Shown one piece after another: positions 4,655 through 41,996 of a stretch of 48,111 bases of DNA. This stretch comes from Candidatus Pollutiaquabacter sp. (lineage in GTDB: Bacteria > Bacteroidota > Bacteroidia > AKYH767-A > 2013-40CM-41-45), in NCBI GenBank assembly GCA_947465495.1, contig CANIAS010000017.1:1-48111 (forward strand), read 5' to 3'. The position numbers and the translations under genes are program-made. The notes under the pieces were generated by a model that saw only the letters and a list, made by a program, of their open reading frames with translations, had not been told where the DNA came from and searched no databases. How positions within the stretch are numbered: position 1 is the stretch's first letter; every line of letters begins with the position of its first letter.

Positions 4655-5797
4655 ATGTTTGACCACACTATGCAAAGTTCTAATTTCAAGTTATTGTTAT
4701 TGAGTGATGACGAATTCTATCGTGAATTGATTCATACTCATTTAAGGTCCTGGGCTCATTTGGACGTAGTTGAAATGAAGAATGCAGGGTCCTTATTGGC
4801 ATATGACCAAACTGCACCCGATTTCATTTTAATGGATGAGCAATTTGAAGATCATCAAGTGGAAGAGCTCGTATCTGTCCTTCGACTTAAATTTTCGGAT
4901 GTTCCATTGACCATTTTTACATCGGATGAGACGACGGGTCGTCGGTTGGAGTTGAAGCAGCTTGGGGCTTACGAAGTAATTGTGAAGGATGAAAATTTGT
5001 GTGACTTATTGGAGTTTAATGTTAACGGGTATATCCAGCAATTGCAATTGCAGCGAAATAATGAGAATTTACGCAAACGGATTGAAAAGAACTTCATTCT
5101 GTCGGCTACCCCTTCTATACTTAGCAAGACAATCCAAGAGGATGAAACGTCGTTGGAAGATTATACCATGCAAATCATCCATCAGTACCTGGCCAAATAC
5201 AATAATAATGTTGTCTTGGTAGCCCGAAAGCTTGGTGTTGGGAAATCGACTATTTACCGGTATCTGAAAGACAATAAGCTCAAGTTATCGGGCGATCCAT
5301 TTATCATGGGCGGAGCTACCTCTGAGTCGATGTTGGAACATGCTTCTGGCGTCCAGGAGTACCGGTCTTCATCCAGCGCTTCACACAATACCGGCAGTGT
5401 CCTGGAATCGGCTATTGAATGGTCATCGCCGAACGCTCCAACAGATCTTTCTTTTCTTTTCAAAGTATCCAAAGGAAATCCGATTGTCGTGATTAATATG
5501 GTCGAAACGTTTTTCCGCTCAGCGGGTAAGCTGATTGAGCAATTAAAACAATTCCAAACCAATCGTGATGCTGGCCATATCATAAATACCTTGCATAAAT
5601 TCAAACCAACCGTTGATTCAGTTGGCATGCGATCGTTAAAAAACTTGATTTTAAATACAGAGGAGCGTTTGTCGGCGAAATCCGACTGGGCAGAGATCGA
5701 TCGTTGTCTGGAGGAAGTGTATACCACTTACTATCAATGCGAAAACAGTCTGCGCCAACAACGTGATCGCTTGAAATCGGCAGGTACGTCGCTTTAA
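4655..5797 (+). CDS. Response regulator with REC, Fis-type HTH and C-terminal HPt domain
   Basis: A 380-residue protein with three modules. Residues ~11-125 are a receiver domain with an intact phosphorylation site (Asp18/Asp19, phospho-acceptor Asp61 in FILMDEQF, Thr89, Lys111). Residues ~165-210 resemble the C-terminal DNA-binding domain of NtrC-family activators (HQYLAKYNNNVVLVARKLGV then KSTIYRYLK), but there is no AAA+ sigma54-activation domain. After a Ser-rich linker, residues ~262-370 form an HPt helical bundle with His314 in LHKFKPTVDSVGM. The protein could therefore receive phosphate on REC, bind DNA and also pass or accept phosphate through HPt. The start ATG at 4655 has a second Met six codons in. 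It is monocistronic and upstream of purD. Each domain is clear; the combined role is inferred. Confidence 0.82.
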   Translation: MFDHTMQSSNFKLLLLSDDEFYRELIHTHLRSWAHLDVVEMKNAGSLLAYDQTAPDFILMDEQFEDHQVEELVSVLRLKFSDVPLTIFTSDETTGRRLELKQLGAYEVIVKDENLCDLLEFNVNGYIQQLQLQRNNENLRKRIEKNFILSATPSILSKTIQEDETSLEDYTMQIIHQYLAKYNNNVVLVARKLGVGKSTIYRYLKDNKLKLSGDPFIMGGATSESMLEHASGVQEYRSSSSASHNTGSVLESAIEWSSPNAPTDLSFLFKVSKGNPIVVINMVETFFRSAGKLIEQLKQFQTNRDAGHIINTLHKFKPTVDSVGMRSLKNLILNTEERLSAKSDWAEIDRCLEEVYTTYYQCENSLRQQRDRLKSAGTSL

Positions 5798-5898: not shown

Positions 5899-7176
5899 AT
5901 GAATATTCTATTATTGGGTTCTGGTGGCAGAGAACATGCCCTGGCCAATGCTATTTCCAAGAGTCCTTCCTGTAGTAAATTATGGATTGCACCTGGTAAT
6001 GCAGGTACATCTACTTGCGGACGTAATGTGGCCATTTCGTCAACCGATTTTTCCGCCGTCGCTTCATTTTGCGTGGAGAATGAAGTTCAACTTGTTGTAG
6101 TGGGTCCGGAGGAACCTCTGGTGAAAGGGATAACCGATTTTTTCAGCGCCGACGATAGGCTGTCTCAGATCCCGGTTATCGGTCCAACGGCCGCCGGTGC
6201 TCGCCTAGAAGGAAGTAAGGATTTTGCCAAATCGTTTATGCTGCGCCATGGAATTCCAACGGCTGCATACGGCTCGTTTACAGCTGCTTCACTTTCTGCG
6301 GGCTATGATTTCCTAACGACCTTACATCCACCGTATGTATTGAAGGCCGATGGATTGGCCGCTGGTAAAGGCGTTTTGATACTTGATCGGTTAGAAGATG
6401 CAAAGCAAGAGCTGGAGGCGATGTTGCAGCATGCCAAGTTCGGGGCGGCAAGCAGTACGGTTGTCATTGAAGAATTCCTGCACGGTATCGAACTTTCTGT
6501 ATTCGTTCTGACGGATGGCGAGCATTATAAGATTCTTCCAGCAGCTAAGGACTACAAGCGGATTGGTGAAGGTGATCAGGGATTGAATACAGGAGGAATG
6601 GGTGCTGTGTCTCCGGTTCCATTTGCCGATGCTGACTTTATGAAGACCGTGGAACAGCGTATCGTTAGACCTACGGTGGAAGGATTGAAAAAAGATGGTA
6701 TCGGTTATCGTGGATGGATCTTCATTGGATTGATGAATATGGATGGCAACCCTAAGGTCATCGAATACAACGTGCGCATGGGCGATCCGGAAACGGAAGT
6801 TGTATTTCCGCGAATTCAATCGGATGTTGTCGAATTATTGTCAGCAACGGGCAACGGAACGTTGGATCAGCACGAACTTCGAATAGACCCTCGAACGGCG
6901 TTAACAGTGATGATGGTCAGTGGTGGTTATCCAGAAGAATATGAAAAAGGGAAGGTAATAACGGGACTCGACCGTGTTTCAGGTAGCATGGTCTTTCATG
7001 CAGGCACATCGACTGATAAAGATGGCAACATCATCACTAACGGTGGACGAGTTCTAGCCGTAACGTCACTTGGAGCGGACTTAGCTGAAGCACAAGCCAC
7101 CAGCTATGCGTCAATTCGTGAAATCGCGTTTGATGGAAGTTATTTCCGTCGCGATATTGGCAAGGATCTCGAATAG
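5899..7176 (+). CDS. purD: Phosphoribosylamine-glycine ligase (GAR synthetase)
   Basis: Catalyses ATP-dependent joining of 5-phosphoribosylamine and glycine, the second step of purine synthesis, in the cytoplasm. The N-terminus MNILLLGSGGREHALA is the PurD N-domain signature. VVGPEEPLVKGI and the ATP-grasp elements follow (GSKDFAKSFM, LKADGLAAGKGV, EEFLHGIELSVF). The classical PurD pattern RMGDPETEVVFPR lies near residue 295. The start is placed at the ATG at 5899, where the conserved N-terminus begins; a TTG seven codons upstream is unlikely. The length of 425 residues is normal for the family. It converges with a REC-TM gene, with 23 bases between the stops. Confidence 0.97.
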   Translation: MNILLLGSGGREHALANAISKSPSCSKLWIAPGNAGTSTCGRNVAISSTDFSAVASFCVENEVQLVVVGPEEPLVKGITDFFSADDRLSQIPVIGPTAAGARLEGSKDFAKSFMLRHGIPTAAYGSFTAASLSAGYDFLTTLHPPYVLKADGLAAGKGVLILDRLEDAKQELEAMLQHAKFGAASSTVVIEEFLHGIELSVFVLTDGEHYKILPAAKDYKRIGEGDQGLNTGGMGAVSPVPFADADFMKTVEQRIVRPTVEGLKKDGIGYRGWIFIGLMNMDGNPKVIEYNVRMGDPETEVVFPRIQSDVVELLSATGNGTLDQHELRIDPRTALTVMMVSGGYPEEYEKGKVITGLDRVSGSMVFHAGTSTDKDGNIITNGGRVLAVTSLGADLAEAQATSYASIREIAFDGSYFRRDIGKDLE

Positions 7177-7199
7177 TCCTATAACAATGGGAGGACCGA

Positions 7200-7730
7200 T
7201 CAACGGTAATAATAGGAGAGTACCAGGAGTAAAGTGAATAGAATCAGTCCGACAACGCCCAATGTGGCGAAGTCTTTACGATCTTTTTTTAACCGAAAAA
7301 TTTCGTTGGTCTTAAGGATAGAAGTTAGTACGGTTGTGAAGGTGCTCTCATTTCCTTTGACGAAATAATCAATAGCCCCCTTCTGCAGGGTATCTAAAGC
7401 AATGGATAGTTTGTCCTGTGCGGAAAGAATCACGACTGGCATTTTAGGATCTCGACGTTTTATCTCTTCCAGAACTTGCAAGCCATTCATCCGGCCATTG
7501 CCGCCGAAATCGAAATCGCACACGACAAACCGACGGTCGCTGGGCTTGAGAACAGAAAGAAACTCCTCGCCACTTGAGTAGCATTCAATACCAGCGATGT
7601 TCATGGAGGTCAGATAATCTTTCAGGGTCTCGATGAAAAGTGCATCATCGTCCACCAGTGTAATAGTGAATTCAAGAGCCCGTTTGTCACCATTTTCAGG
7701 AAGTAGGGCGAAGTAGTAGAAATCGTACAC
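7200..7730 (-). CDS. Membrane-anchored response regulator (REC plus one C-terminal TM helix), copy 1
   Basis: A 176-residue protein. Residues ~22-140 are a complete receiver domain: acidic cluster Asp27-29, phospho-acceptor Asp72 in VVCDFDFGG, Ser103 in VILSAQD and Lys125 in DYFVKGNES. A short basic stretch (RLKKDRKD) precedes one hydrophobic helix at ~155-174, and the chain ends YYYR. There is no DNA-binding or enzymatic output domain. The expected topology is REC in the cytoplasm, tail-anchored in the inner membrane. The only start in frame before the REC domain is the GTG at 7730, and a stop lies five codons upstream of it. A paralogue of the same architecture lies at 39383-39901. Transcribed alone, downstream of (and not overlapping) the DUF6341-like gene on the same strand. 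Confidence 0.85.
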   Translation of the reverse strand: MYDFYYFALLPENGDKRALEFTITLVDDDALFIETLKDYLTSMNIAGIECYSSGEEFLSVLKPSDRRFVVCDFDFGGNGRMNGLQVLEEIKRRDPKMPVVILSAQDKLSIALDTLQKGAIDYFVKGNESTFTTVLTSILKTNEIFRLKKDRKDFATLGVVGLILFTLLLVLSYYYR

Positions 7731-7754
7731 GTGGCGTTTGACTTAAAGTAGTTG

Positions 7755-7922
7755 TTAATCGATTTTTTCTACCGACTTATTTTTACTCATGTAGCGCATC
7801 CATGCAAAGAAGGCAAAAAAGCCAATTCCGATGAGGAGCTTATTGAAAAAGGTCCCCAGTGGAGGGACAATCGTGAAGATTCCTTCGAATACGTCACCGA
7901 GAAAATGCCAGAATCCAGTCAT
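7755..7922 (-). CDS. Small membrane protein, DUF6341-like
   Basis: A 55-residue protein starting at the ATG at 7922 (MTGFWHFLGDVFEGIFTIVP). It has an amphipathic N-terminal helix, one membrane segment (NKLLIGIGFFAFFAWMRYM) and a charged tail. Its size, sequence style and position next to a DUF6427-like gene resemble the small DUF6341 family of Bacteroidota; this comes from memory of gene neighbourhoods and was not searched. Longer in-frame translation to 7973 adds an unlikely His/Tyr/Ser-rich leader. A good Bacteroidota-type promoter lies just upstream (7942-7973, minus strand). Function unknown. Confidence 0.6.
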   Translation of the reverse strand: MTGFWHFLGDVFEGIFTIVPPLGTFFNKLLIGIGFFAFFAWMRYMSKNKSVEKID

Positions 7923-7941
7923 GCTGCTATGGTTTATGTTA

Positions 7942-7973
7942 CAAATATAGGAATAGGAGTGGTACACGGGCAA
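7942..7973 (-). promoter_or_regulatory. Bacteroidota-type promoter for the DUF6341-like gene
   Basis: On the minus strand TTG (7973-7971), a 21-base spacer, then TATATTTG (7949-7942), a perfect match to the TAnnTTTG -7 box. Transcription would begin about 14 bases before the ATG at 7922. Confidence 0.45.
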
Positions 7974-7999
7974 TCAAAATTTGCCTACTTTTAACACGC

Positions 8000-8980
8000 A
8001 TGATTCGTTTTTTCAGGTCCCCGCAACCGGCCGCATTGTTCATTATTCCATTCATAACCATGCTGTTATGGTCAATAGGATGGGTTTTTATGCCTGTTTA
8101 TAATGCATCCGGGCTTTCGCCTGTTTGGAATTTCATCCAACCCTTATTCTTCGTGATGCCCGTTGCAATACGTACACTGCTGATGGTTTTGGTGGTTTCA
8201 ACGAGTGCCATCTATTTTAATCGGCTGATGAATAGACATGAGGTTCTGTATAAGAACTCGTATTTGCCCTCGCTTTTTTACGTCCTCTTGTCTTCCGCCT
8301 TTCCCGCATTTCTATCAGTACATCCGATACATTTTATCAATTTGATGCTGCTCTTACTATTGGACAGTTCATTTGATTTTTTCAAAAATGATCGGGTCGT
8401 AAAATCAATATTCAATGGAGGCTTTTTAACCGGCGTTATCTGCATTATTTATTTTCCAATGTTTCCGTTGATCCTTTTTTACTTCATGGTACTTGTAATA
8501 CTTCGTTCGTTTGAATTACGCGAATGGTTAATAGCAGCAGTCGGAATCTTTGTGCCGTTTTTTTTTCTCGCAGTTTGGTGGTTTCCGCAAACGCTGATTG
8601 GCCAAGTACATTGGCTGAACGACTATATTTTGAATTACCGCCTTGCCGTGTTGATGCCTCTTCCTGCCAAAGCAAATGTACTCGCGTTGTTCATTGGTTT
8701 GCTGGTTCTTGTATCGATCGTTAAACTGCGCAGTCATTATTATAAGAACATCGTTCGAACCCGAGCGTATCAACAGTCGATCATTCTATTGCTGTTGTTT
8801 TTGATAGGGATTATTTTCCTGTCGGGGAATATGATGGTTGCCAATTTCTCCACCTTGGTAATTCCTTGCGCAGTGGTCATCACGTATTGGTTTGTGGCGG
8901 CTAAGAAAAGGCTATGGTTTTATGAGTTGACCTTATGGGCGTTCATTGGATTGATCGTATGGAATCATCTGAGTAGTTGA
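8000..8980 (+). CDS. Polytopic membrane protein, DUF6427-like
   Basis: A 326-residue integral membrane protein with about 9-10 hydrophobic helices and short loops. The N-terminal RFFRSPQPAALFIIPFI and the central motif LLLLDSSFDFFKND resemble the uncharacterised DUF6427 family of Bacteroidota (assignment by recollection). Helices 4-6 hold paired aromatic and Pro positions (YFPMFPLILFYF) as in GT-C or O-antigen-polymerase-like proteins. The gene directly downstream, 16 bases away, encodes a GT-C-type membrane protein, so a role in lipid-linked sugar or envelope processes is possible but unproven. The start ATG at 8000 follows a near -7 box, TACTTTTA, at 7986-7993. Confidence 0.68.
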   Translation: MIRFFRSPQPAALFIIPFITMLLWSIGWVFMPVYNASGLSPVWNFIQPLFFVMPVAIRTLLMVLVVSTSAIYFNRLMNRHEVLYKNSYLPSLFYVLLSSAFPAFLSVHPIHFINLMLLLLLDSSFDFFKNDRVVKSIFNGGFLTGVICIIYFPMFPLILFYFMVLVILRSFELREWLIAAVGIFVPFFFLAVWWFPQTLIGQVHWLNDYILNYRLAVLMPLPAKANVLALFIGLLVLVSIVKLRSHYYKNIVRTRAYQQSIILLLLFLIGIIFLSGNMMVANFSTLVIPCAVVITYWFVAAKKRLWFYELTLWAFIGLIVWNHLSS

Positions 8981-39382: not shown

Positions 39383-39901
39383 TTAATACCAACCAGGATT
39401 GGAACTGATGGCCCCCTTGCTATATAATATTGCAATCAACACAATCATTGCCAAAAATGCAATTCCCAAGAGCATCGTAAGGCGTTTATAAAGCTTTGCT
39501 TCTTGCGTCAGTTTAAGACGTTTGATGATGTTAAAAATGACATTTTCGGAGCGGTGGAACGCACTTTCATTCTTAACGATGTAATCGTAGGCTCCGTACT
39601 TCATGGTATTGACCGCTACTTCTATTTTGTCCTGACCACTAAACATGACAACTTCGGTATCAGGAGCCAATTTCTTGACTTCTTTCAGAATGTCCAATCC
39701 GTCCATGGCATCTTTCCCAACCAGGTCGAAGTTGTAATCAAGGAAAATGATTTGCGGATTCAATCCCATATTTTTCAAGCACTCTTCCCCTGATCCAAAC
39801 ACATGGATAGAGATGGTGGAGTATTTGCTCAGGTAATCCTGAAGCATCATAGCTTGCATGGGATCGTCATCGACGATGAAGATCGTTTGGATCTGATTCA
39901 T
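39383..39901 (-). CDS. Membrane-anchored response regulator (REC plus one C-terminal TM helix), copy 2
   Basis: 172 residues. Complete REC at ~3-125: Asp11-13, phospho-acceptor Asp55 in IIFLDYNFDLVG, Ser88 in VVMFSGQDK and Lys110 in YDYIVKNES. A basic or amphipathic stretch (IIKRLKLTQEAKLYKRL) leads to one membrane helix (~142-160) and a short exposed tail (SKGAISSNPGWY). There is no DNA-binding or catalytic output domain. It shares architecture and signatures (SAQDK/SGQDK, DYFVK/DYIVK plus NES) with the protein at 7200-7730. It is last in a minus-strand operon after an HPt protein (94 bases) and a REC-HK-REC kinase, so it is the probable final acceptor of that relay. Start ATG at 39901. Confidence 0.87.
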   Translation of the reverse strand: MNQIQTIFIVDDDPMQAMMLQDYLSKYSTISIHVFGSGEECLKNMGLNPQIIFLDYNFDLVGKDAMDGLDILKEVKKLAPDTEVVMFSGQDKIEVAVNTMKYGAYDYIVKNESAFHRSENVIFNIIKRLKLTQEAKLYKRLTMLLGIAFLAMIVLIAILYSKGAISSNPGWY

Positions 39902-39995: not shown

Positions 39996-40337
39996 TCAGG
40001 CGATTTCGGCCGCAAGCTCTTCCATCGCCTTTCGGCAAAGGCCATCGAATTCCGTTAGCATGCCAGGTAATTTATCTAGCTCTGTTTTCGTCGAGGCATG
40101 ATGCTCCAGCGCTTTAATCAGGGGTTCGGCAGCTTTAATGCCCATGTAGGAGATTTGCGGCTTCAAAGCATGGGCCGCGGCGCGAAGGCCGTCATAATTC
40201 TCGCTTTCAAGGCTGGTTTTCATGTTTGTCAGCGAGTTCGGACAGAGTTGAAGAAACATGGAGATGTATTTCTTCATCTTGTCTTTGTTTCCTCCTGCAA
40301 ATGTATTCAGGAAGGTAAGGTCGGTGATTCTTTCCAT
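39996..40337 (-). CDS. Stand-alone HPt phosphotransfer protein
   Basis: 113 residues from the ATG at 40337 (a TTG at 40355 is less likely). A single four-helix HPt domain with phospho-acceptor His56 in AAAHALKPQISYMGI. It shuttles phosphate between receiver domains. The upstream kinase (39 bases away) ends in a receiver but lacks an HPt, and downstream is a REC-TM protein, so this protein is placed to link the two. No membrane segment. Confidence 0.9.
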   Translation of the reverse strand: MERITDLTFLNTFAGGNKDKMKKYISMFLQLCPNSLTNMKTSLESENYDGLRAAAHALKPQISYMGIKAAEPLIKALEHHASTKTELDKLPGMLTEFDGLCRKAMEELAAEIA

Positions 40338-40376
40338 AGTGAATGGTTGAGACAATTCGTCGTTAGTTCCAATTGA

Positions 40377-41996
40377 CTACTTCAGCACCAATTTTCCGAT
40401 TTTGAAAATCAGGTCATTGGGGTCAAATGGTTTCGCAATATACTGATCAACCCCCGAATCATAACATTTATCAACCTCCTCTTTCGTCACATTGGCTGTC
40501 ATAGCCATTATTTTAATGGAATTCTTTGGCGATGGAAGTTCCGTTCGAATTCGCCGAATAGCTTCGAAGCCGTCCATGACCGGCATTTGGATATCCATGA
40601 GTATCAAATCGTAGGAACCCGTAGATGCTTTTTCGAGCCCTTCAGCGCCGTTTTCGGCAATGTCGATGGTGATTTCTGGTATCATATCGTTCAAGGTGTC
40701 TGTAGCGACCATTTGATTGAAGACGTTGTCTTCCACTAAAAGTATGCGAAGGCCTTTCAGTTTAGACACATCCGTAGCAGTTGGTAGGGGTGGTTTTTCA
40801 AGGTCTTTTTCATCGCCGATGCCAAAAGGAAGTGTGAATGAAAACGTCGTTCCGCTGCCGACTTCGGATACAAGGTCAATCGATCCTCCGTGAAGATCAA
40901 TCAACTGTTTGGAAATGGTTAACCCTAACCCTGTTCCTCCAAATTTACGGTTGGTATTACTGCTGGCTTGGGAGAAGCTGTCAAATATGACGCCGATAGT
41001 ATCCGATGCTATACCAATACCTGTATCGACCACTTTGAAATCTATAACACACCGCTGAGGCAATAGCTCTGCCAGTCGGACCAGTAAATTTACAGATCCT
41101 ACTTCGGTGAATTTAATGGCGTTTCCTAGTAGGTTGAGTAGGATTTGACTTAATCGGACAGGGTCGCCAATCAGCACCTTTGGAATCGCATCGTCGATGT
41201 CCATACTTAATTTAAGGCCTTTTTCCGCCGACCGCACAAGCATGATTTGATATAGATTGTTGAAAGTAGACTGTAGCGAGAAAGCGGTCTTCTCGAGTAT
41301 CATCTTGCCAGCTTCAATCTTGGATATGTCTAAGATGTCGTTGATGATTACCAGCAAGTTCTCGGATGATTTTTTGATGGTGTCAAGGTACTTGGCTTGC
41401 TGGTCATCTAAGTTGGACTTCAGGAGCAAATGGGTGAGGCCAATGATAGAGTTAAGCGGTGTGCGAATTTCGTGGCTCATATTCGCCAAGAATTGTTGTT
41501 TGAATTTTTCGCTTTGACGCGCTTTGTCTTTCTCTAGCTCAGCGCGTTCTTTGGCAATTAGTGTGAATTCAAGTTGTTCGTGCGCTTTAATTCCTTGCCG
41601 GATCATGCGCACTTCGCTGAGGGTTTTCATGATTGTTACTTCCAAATCAGCAAAGTCGATGGGCTTTGTGATGAAGTCAAAGGCCCCGCTATTCATTGCT
41701 TTTCGGATGTTCTCCAGATCGCCATATGCACTTACCACAACAGCTTTGAAGGAACCCGCCTGTTTTTTCAATCGAGTAAGCAAGGTGAGCCCATCCATCA
41801 CTGGCATATTGATATCGGTGAGCACCATGTCAAACTCCCGCCCCGAAGAGTTCAGTTTAGTCAACGCTTCTTCGCCATTGACGGCAAAGTCAAATTTAAG
41901 TTCTCCTCCTTTGATCTGCCGGCGAAATCGCTGGCGAATCAATAATTCTATATCCGGTTCGTCGTCAACGACAAGAATGAGCGGCGGGAAAGACAT
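40377..41996 (-). CDS. Hybrid histidine kinase REC-HisKA-HATPase-REC
   Basis: 539 residues, cytosolic with no membrane helix and no PAS. REC1 at ~5-125 (Asp61 in [13 protein letters not shown], Lys111). A coiled linker (~130-168) leads to HisKA (His175 in [11 protein letters not shown]), HATPase_c ([27 protein letters not shown]), and REC2 at ~415-535 (Asp468 in [13 protein letters not shown], Lys in AKPFDP). With no sensor domain, input probably comes through phosphorylation of the N-terminal REC by another kinase. REC2 would pass phosphate to the HPt protein encoded next. Start ATG at 41996. Confidence 0.93.

Follow-up and report, generated by a model that had tools for sequence, protein, structure and literature searches.

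On the reverse strand of the window, as we call the whole 48,111-nucleotide stretch analysed here, positions 7200..7730 hold a gene with a GTG start for a tail-anchored single-domain response regulator of 176 amino acids (copy 1). It is one of a genuine, selected family of tail-anchored receivers found in Chitinophagales-like and other Bacteroidota, and another member (copy 2) is encoded on the same strand of the window. We lean towards the reading that copy 1 is a membrane-localised switch and works through contact with a partner in the inner membrane.

Gene Structure and Predicted Topology

The GTG start of copy 1 is supported because the orthologue in genome G003 carries ATG at the corresponding position and the orthologue in G002 is conserved from residue 1. 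Response_reg on residues 23-126 (E 5e-18) was the sole Pfam domain found, and NCBIfam gave receiver-level matches only, below cut-offs, with no recognised output domain in either collection. The receiver domain (residues 22-128; 7347..7667, reverse strand) has the acid pair D27/D28, the acceptor D72, S103, Y122, and K125 all in place, and D28, D72, S103, Y122, and K125 are invariant in an alignment of 27 family members. With its acid pair, Asp, Ser/Thr, and Lys intact, copy 1 belongs to the single-domain response regulators, and its phosphorylation is predicted. A scan of 7100-8100 for promoters and terminators gave no signal above shuffled background.

The receiver is followed by a basic linker (residues 129-153; 7272..7346, reverse strand) and by a C-terminal transmembrane helix (residues 154-176, FATLGVVGLILFTLLLVLSYYYR; 7203..7271, reverse strand) with virtually no extracytoplasmic tail. 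The best 19 residues of the helix have a mean Kyte-Doolittle value of 2.53, and its insertion energy is about -2.7 kcal/mol by our own, approximate re-implementation of the Hessa scale. Since six K/R residues stand within 20 residues before the helix and none after it, an N-in topology is predicted. In the AlphaFold model (mean pLDDT 81) an unbroken helix of residues 130-175, of which the linker is part, runs from alpha5 through the membrane segment. A single C-terminal transmembrane helix, a short far-side tail, and cytoplasmic positive charges are the sequence features of a C-tail-anchored inner-membrane protein, and the plan of receiver, phosphorylation residues, basic linker, and C-terminal helix given in the preliminary description was found complete.

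Nonsynonymous divergence of copy 1 between G000 and G002 is 0.09 in the linker and transmembrane helix and 0.17 in the receiver, with synonymous sites saturated. The tail evolves no faster than the receiver, and this sequence comparison indicates that it is under purifying selection.

Neighborhood and Distribution of Copy 1

A gene for a 54-aa single-transmembrane protein (7755..7919, reverse strand) lies 24 bp upstream of copy 1 on the same strand; DUF names were sought for this protein and for 8000-8980, and no Pfam match above cut-off was obtained. This small gene is kept beside purD in relatives without copy 1 at this site: the two genes are adjacent, with copy 1 absent there, in G003, G005, G006, G008, G009, and G010, and are separated by 46-176 bp in those genomes, compared with 579 bp in the window. 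The most likely origin of copy 1 at this site is therefore an insertion between these two genes in the G000-G002 lineage. Among relatives, orthologues of copy 1 are present only in G002 (80% identity) and G003 (53%), and copy 1 is a gene of recent origin, confined to its lineage.

Neither the window nor G002 or G003 has a kinase gene linked to copy 1, in line with the earlier statement that it is outside a kinase operon, and no linked partner gene was found either. This lack of a linked partner or kinase gene counts against the switch model. Just upstream of purD, 4655-5797 on the forward strand encodes a receiver with weak matches to a Fis-type HTH and to Hpt, both below cut-off, which is an unusual combination.

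Extent of the Family

Copy 2 (39383..39901, reverse strand; 172 aa) is the protein at 39.4 kb for which the same plan had been proposed, and it aligns with copy 1 at 35% identity over 151 aa (E 3e-25). Its predicted phosphoacceptor is D55. Its transmembrane helix (residues 140-162; 39416..39484, reverse strand) has a mean Kyte-Doolittle value of 2.94 for the best 19 residues and an insertion energy of about -2.9 on the same approximate scale, and its AlphaFold model (mean pLDDT 84) has an unbroken helix 114-161 from alpha5 through the membrane segment; hydrophobicity and insertion energy support a transmembrane helix in both copies. Beyond the helix, copy 2 has an extracytoplasmic C-terminal tail with the motif GxIxxxPGW (39386..39415, reverse strand), in which G163, I165, and W171 are invariant in 28 orthologues, and the membrane helix itself varies freely among them. 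Copy 1 has no such conserved far-side end, so the two tails are not equivalent.

The best GTDB loci for copy 2 come mostly from Chitinophagaceae-like, Prolixibacteraceae, and Flavobacteriales genomes, and 79 of the 80 end in a transmembrane helix with a strong insertion energy, typically in proteins of 162-180 aa, which bears out the earlier claim of a real family. Across the family, an average of 4.2 K/R residues precede the helix and 0.6 follow it. Close relatives of copy 2 are not universal, since a match at E 1e-22 was obtained in 16 of 296 sampled genomes of the phylum. A count per genome in relatives, as had been suggested, showed that several tailed members may occur together, with five in G006.

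Among the receiver proteins checked in the own genome, copies 1 and 2 are the only complete ones with such a tail, and the others had no post-receiver segment with an insertion energy below +2.9. Two more members are cut by contig ends, one of the tailed clade on contig C96 and one of the soluble clade of copy 1 on C90. The C96 gene (L195:2178-2513), a third family member, lies directly downstream of a UvrD-like helicase ORF; in relatives, at loci L155, L158, and L160, there is likewise a large ORF upstream that belongs to a single common cluster and is helicase-like in L155. Proteins of 250 aa with about 115 residues before a soluble receiver resembling copy 1 were seen at L194:1150-1902 and also in L065 and L066.

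Descent of the Tails

A quick-type tree was constructed from 108 rows and 122 columns, and the grouping tested on it was picked post hoc. In this tree copy 1 and both of its orthologues group with soluble receivers (99% SH-aLRT), including the cut C90 gene and a 150-aa G002 protein that has 42% identity to copy 1 and stops at the point corresponding to the start of the copy 1 linker. A topology with all tailed members in one clade was rejected (AU p 3e-11), and we regard this tree-based rejection as strong but not final. By parsimony about six tail changes occurred, in which gain and loss are not separable. The rejection of one tailed clade and the soluble nearest kin of copy 1 argue together that the membrane tail is a module gained or lost repeatedly.

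The two copies had been described as a duplication pair. This did not hold, as copy 2 is old and order-wide and copy 1 is young and kin to soluble receivers; copy 1 as a recent duplicate of copy 2 was rejected on its position nearer to soluble receivers in the tree. The further claim that the membrane position is the function stands in part: repeated gain or loss of the tail fits a position that matters, but position as the whole function is not established. The soluble nearest kin also imply that a receiver of the copy 1 branch can work without the membrane, which counts against the switch model.

The same data bear on the possibility that the receiver is a soluble regulator to which the hydrophobic C-terminal extension is incidental, its position being functionless. 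Tail sequences do differ between clades, and tails have been gained or lost several times, as would suit an extension of this kind; we consider it very improbable, as 79 of 80 homologues have strong insertion energies, the positive-inside bias is strict, and both the tail of copy 1 and the motif that follows the copy 2 helix are conserved.

The Kinase-Hpt-Receiver Operon of Copy 2

The operon of copy 2 runs from a hybrid kinase through Hpt to the receiver, and its receiver end is conserved. A stand-alone Hpt protein (39996..40355, reverse strand) is encoded directly upstream of it, and upstream of Hpt is a soluble hybrid kinase of REC-HisKA-HATPase-REC order with no predicted transmembrane helix (40377..41996, reverse strand). 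Orthologues of copy 2 occur across the order with 52-82% identity, tail included; an Hpt gene adjoins them in 27 of 29 genomes of the order, usually with the hybrid kinase upstream. The Chitinophagaceae have a fused TPR-kinase-REC-Hpt protein of about 880 aa, encoded 36-139 bp upstream of the tethered receiver. At L149:4983-6908, two tailed receivers are interleaved with soluble ones, and a nearby kinase falls into one cluster with the hybrid kinase of the window. Aminotran_1_2 neighbors occur both downstream of copy 2 and in Chitinophagaceae, but they resemble each other only distantly, and a shared aminotransferase neighbor was dropped as a functional clue for this reason.

In a textbook two-component system, the sensor kinase is in the membrane and the response regulator is in the cytoplasm. 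Because 41 of 42 kinases of copy-2-type loci have no predicted transmembrane helix, the usual topology appears inverted, with the kinase cytoplasmic and the receiver held at the membrane. The solubility of these cognate kinases, many of which have TPR repeats, would also be expected if the receiver were a recruitment platform that draws a soluble kinase or Hpt to the membrane, where the kinase and not the receiver acts. We think this improbable, since it does not require the phosphoacceptor triad that is conserved in all members, and copy 1, without a linked kinase, has nothing obvious to recruit.

TonB Fusions and Glycosyltransferase Operons

Outputs of the receiver in relatives are suggested by gene fusions and operons. 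A 395-aa protein of G029 consists of receiver, linker, transmembrane helix, proline-rich region, and TonB_C, in this order, and its operon is ExbB-ExbD-ExbD-TonB-substrate-binding protein-TPR. Full-length receiver-TonB fusions in ExbB-ExbD-ExbD operons were found in six genomes, that is, 6 of 42 in the order (L241:3395-4585, L242:241-1437, L243:2812-4008, L244:3210-4406, L245:3688-4868, and L246:3942-5129), and none in the 296 sampled genomes of the phylum. In the tree, the receivers of the fusions fall inside the group of copy 2 orthologues, with the alternative of fusions outside the copy 2 clade not firmly rejected (AU p 0.085). A search of the own genome gave no receiver-TonB fusion or operon, and its ExbB-ExbD-TonB-like cluster is of another type, without a receiver.

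In G001 and G006, a tailed receiver of another clade is the last gene of an operon (L303:382-3259 and L304:1751-4601) that also encodes a DUF1972 glycosyltransferase and a WecA-type polyprenyl-phosphate transferase; these precede the receiver gene, and the gaps are small or absent. These operons and the TonB fusions suggest that different branches of the family pair with different inner-membrane machines, and the fusions point to phosphorylation control of membrane energisation. The TonB link belongs to the clade of copy 2 and not to that of copy 1, which counts against the switch model for copy 1.

The fusions also bear on a third explanation, in which the tethered receiver is a phosphate sink or insulator: it would draw phosphoryl groups off a shared Hpt close to the membrane and would lack a dedicated output partner. 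Such a role would agree with the absence of an output domain, with the presence of multiple paralogous receivers in a genome (as many as five with tails, in G006), and with soluble sisters in the same genomes. A sink, however, does not need a membrane tail, yet that of copy 1 is under purifying selection by the above comparison; the far-side motif of copy 2 keeps its G, I, and W in all 28 orthologues, and a receiver-TonB fusion implies output. We therefore consider a sink unlikely.

Proposed Mechanism and Comparison with Known Systems

According to the switch model, the receiver of copy 1 would be in the cytoplasm and its C-terminal helix in the inner membrane, N-in, with almost nothing on the far side. 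Copy 1 would be a lineage-restricted member of a family in which tailed proteins other than copy 1, for example copy 2, stand at the end of phosphorelays from a hybrid kinase and Hpt. The tethered receiver would obtain its phosphoryl group from a soluble hybrid kinase and Hpt, and phosphorylation would shift its alpha4-beta5-alpha5 face and dimer state. This shift could travel along the continuous alpha5-linker-membrane helix, and an inner-membrane partner would be controlled by direct contact with the tethered receiver.

Single-domain response regulators of the CheY, DivK, and MrrA type are soluble (reviewed in PMC12471899). Like them, copy 1 has a receiver only, with no DNA-binding or enzymatic output, and action by protein contact is expected; unlike them, its alpha5 is continued by a C-terminal membrane helix. 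The closest solved relative by profile is NtrC1 (1zy2; E 5e-25), and the NtrC-family receivers NtrC1, DctD, and NtrX, which share the extended alpha5-linker helix, are among the best folds. In NtrC-type receivers, the alpha5-linker helix controls dimers. Copy 1 differs from the NtrC family in that its linker helix is predicted to enter the membrane, and with neither the sigma-54 AAA+ domain nor the Fis-type HTH it falls outside this family. Hybrid transmembrane transcription regulators, common in Bacteroidota, have a receiver in a membrane protein and carry DNA-binding domains (PMC10269533); copy 1 shares the membrane receiver but has no DNA-binding domain, and is not one of these regulators. 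As for the ExbB-ExbD-TonB energy transducer, the six relatives have a complete TonB with a receiver from the copy 2 clade joined to its N-terminus, whereas neither copy 1 nor copy 2 contains a TonB domain or a proline-rich region.

Single-domain response regulators and C-tail anchors are both known. In open-licence literature we found no description of membrane-anchored single-domain response regulators as a family, nor of the receiver-TonB link and the soluble-kinase layout. It is possible, and we propose it only tentatively, that these proteins are a class of response regulators that control machines of the inner membrane directly and in a phosphorylation-dependent way, among them the TonB-ExbBD energy transducer and a WecA-type glycosyltransferase, and in which the receiver is in the membrane and the kinase is cytoplasmic. 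The kinase, Hpt, receiver, and TonB provide concrete testable pairs. Phosphorylation control of membrane energisation, to which the TonB fusions point, would be a route that we did not find described in open-licence literature. The textbook layout appears to be reversed in this family, and the reversal is conserved across many Bacteroidota. If this is true, two-component signalling would be turned inside out.
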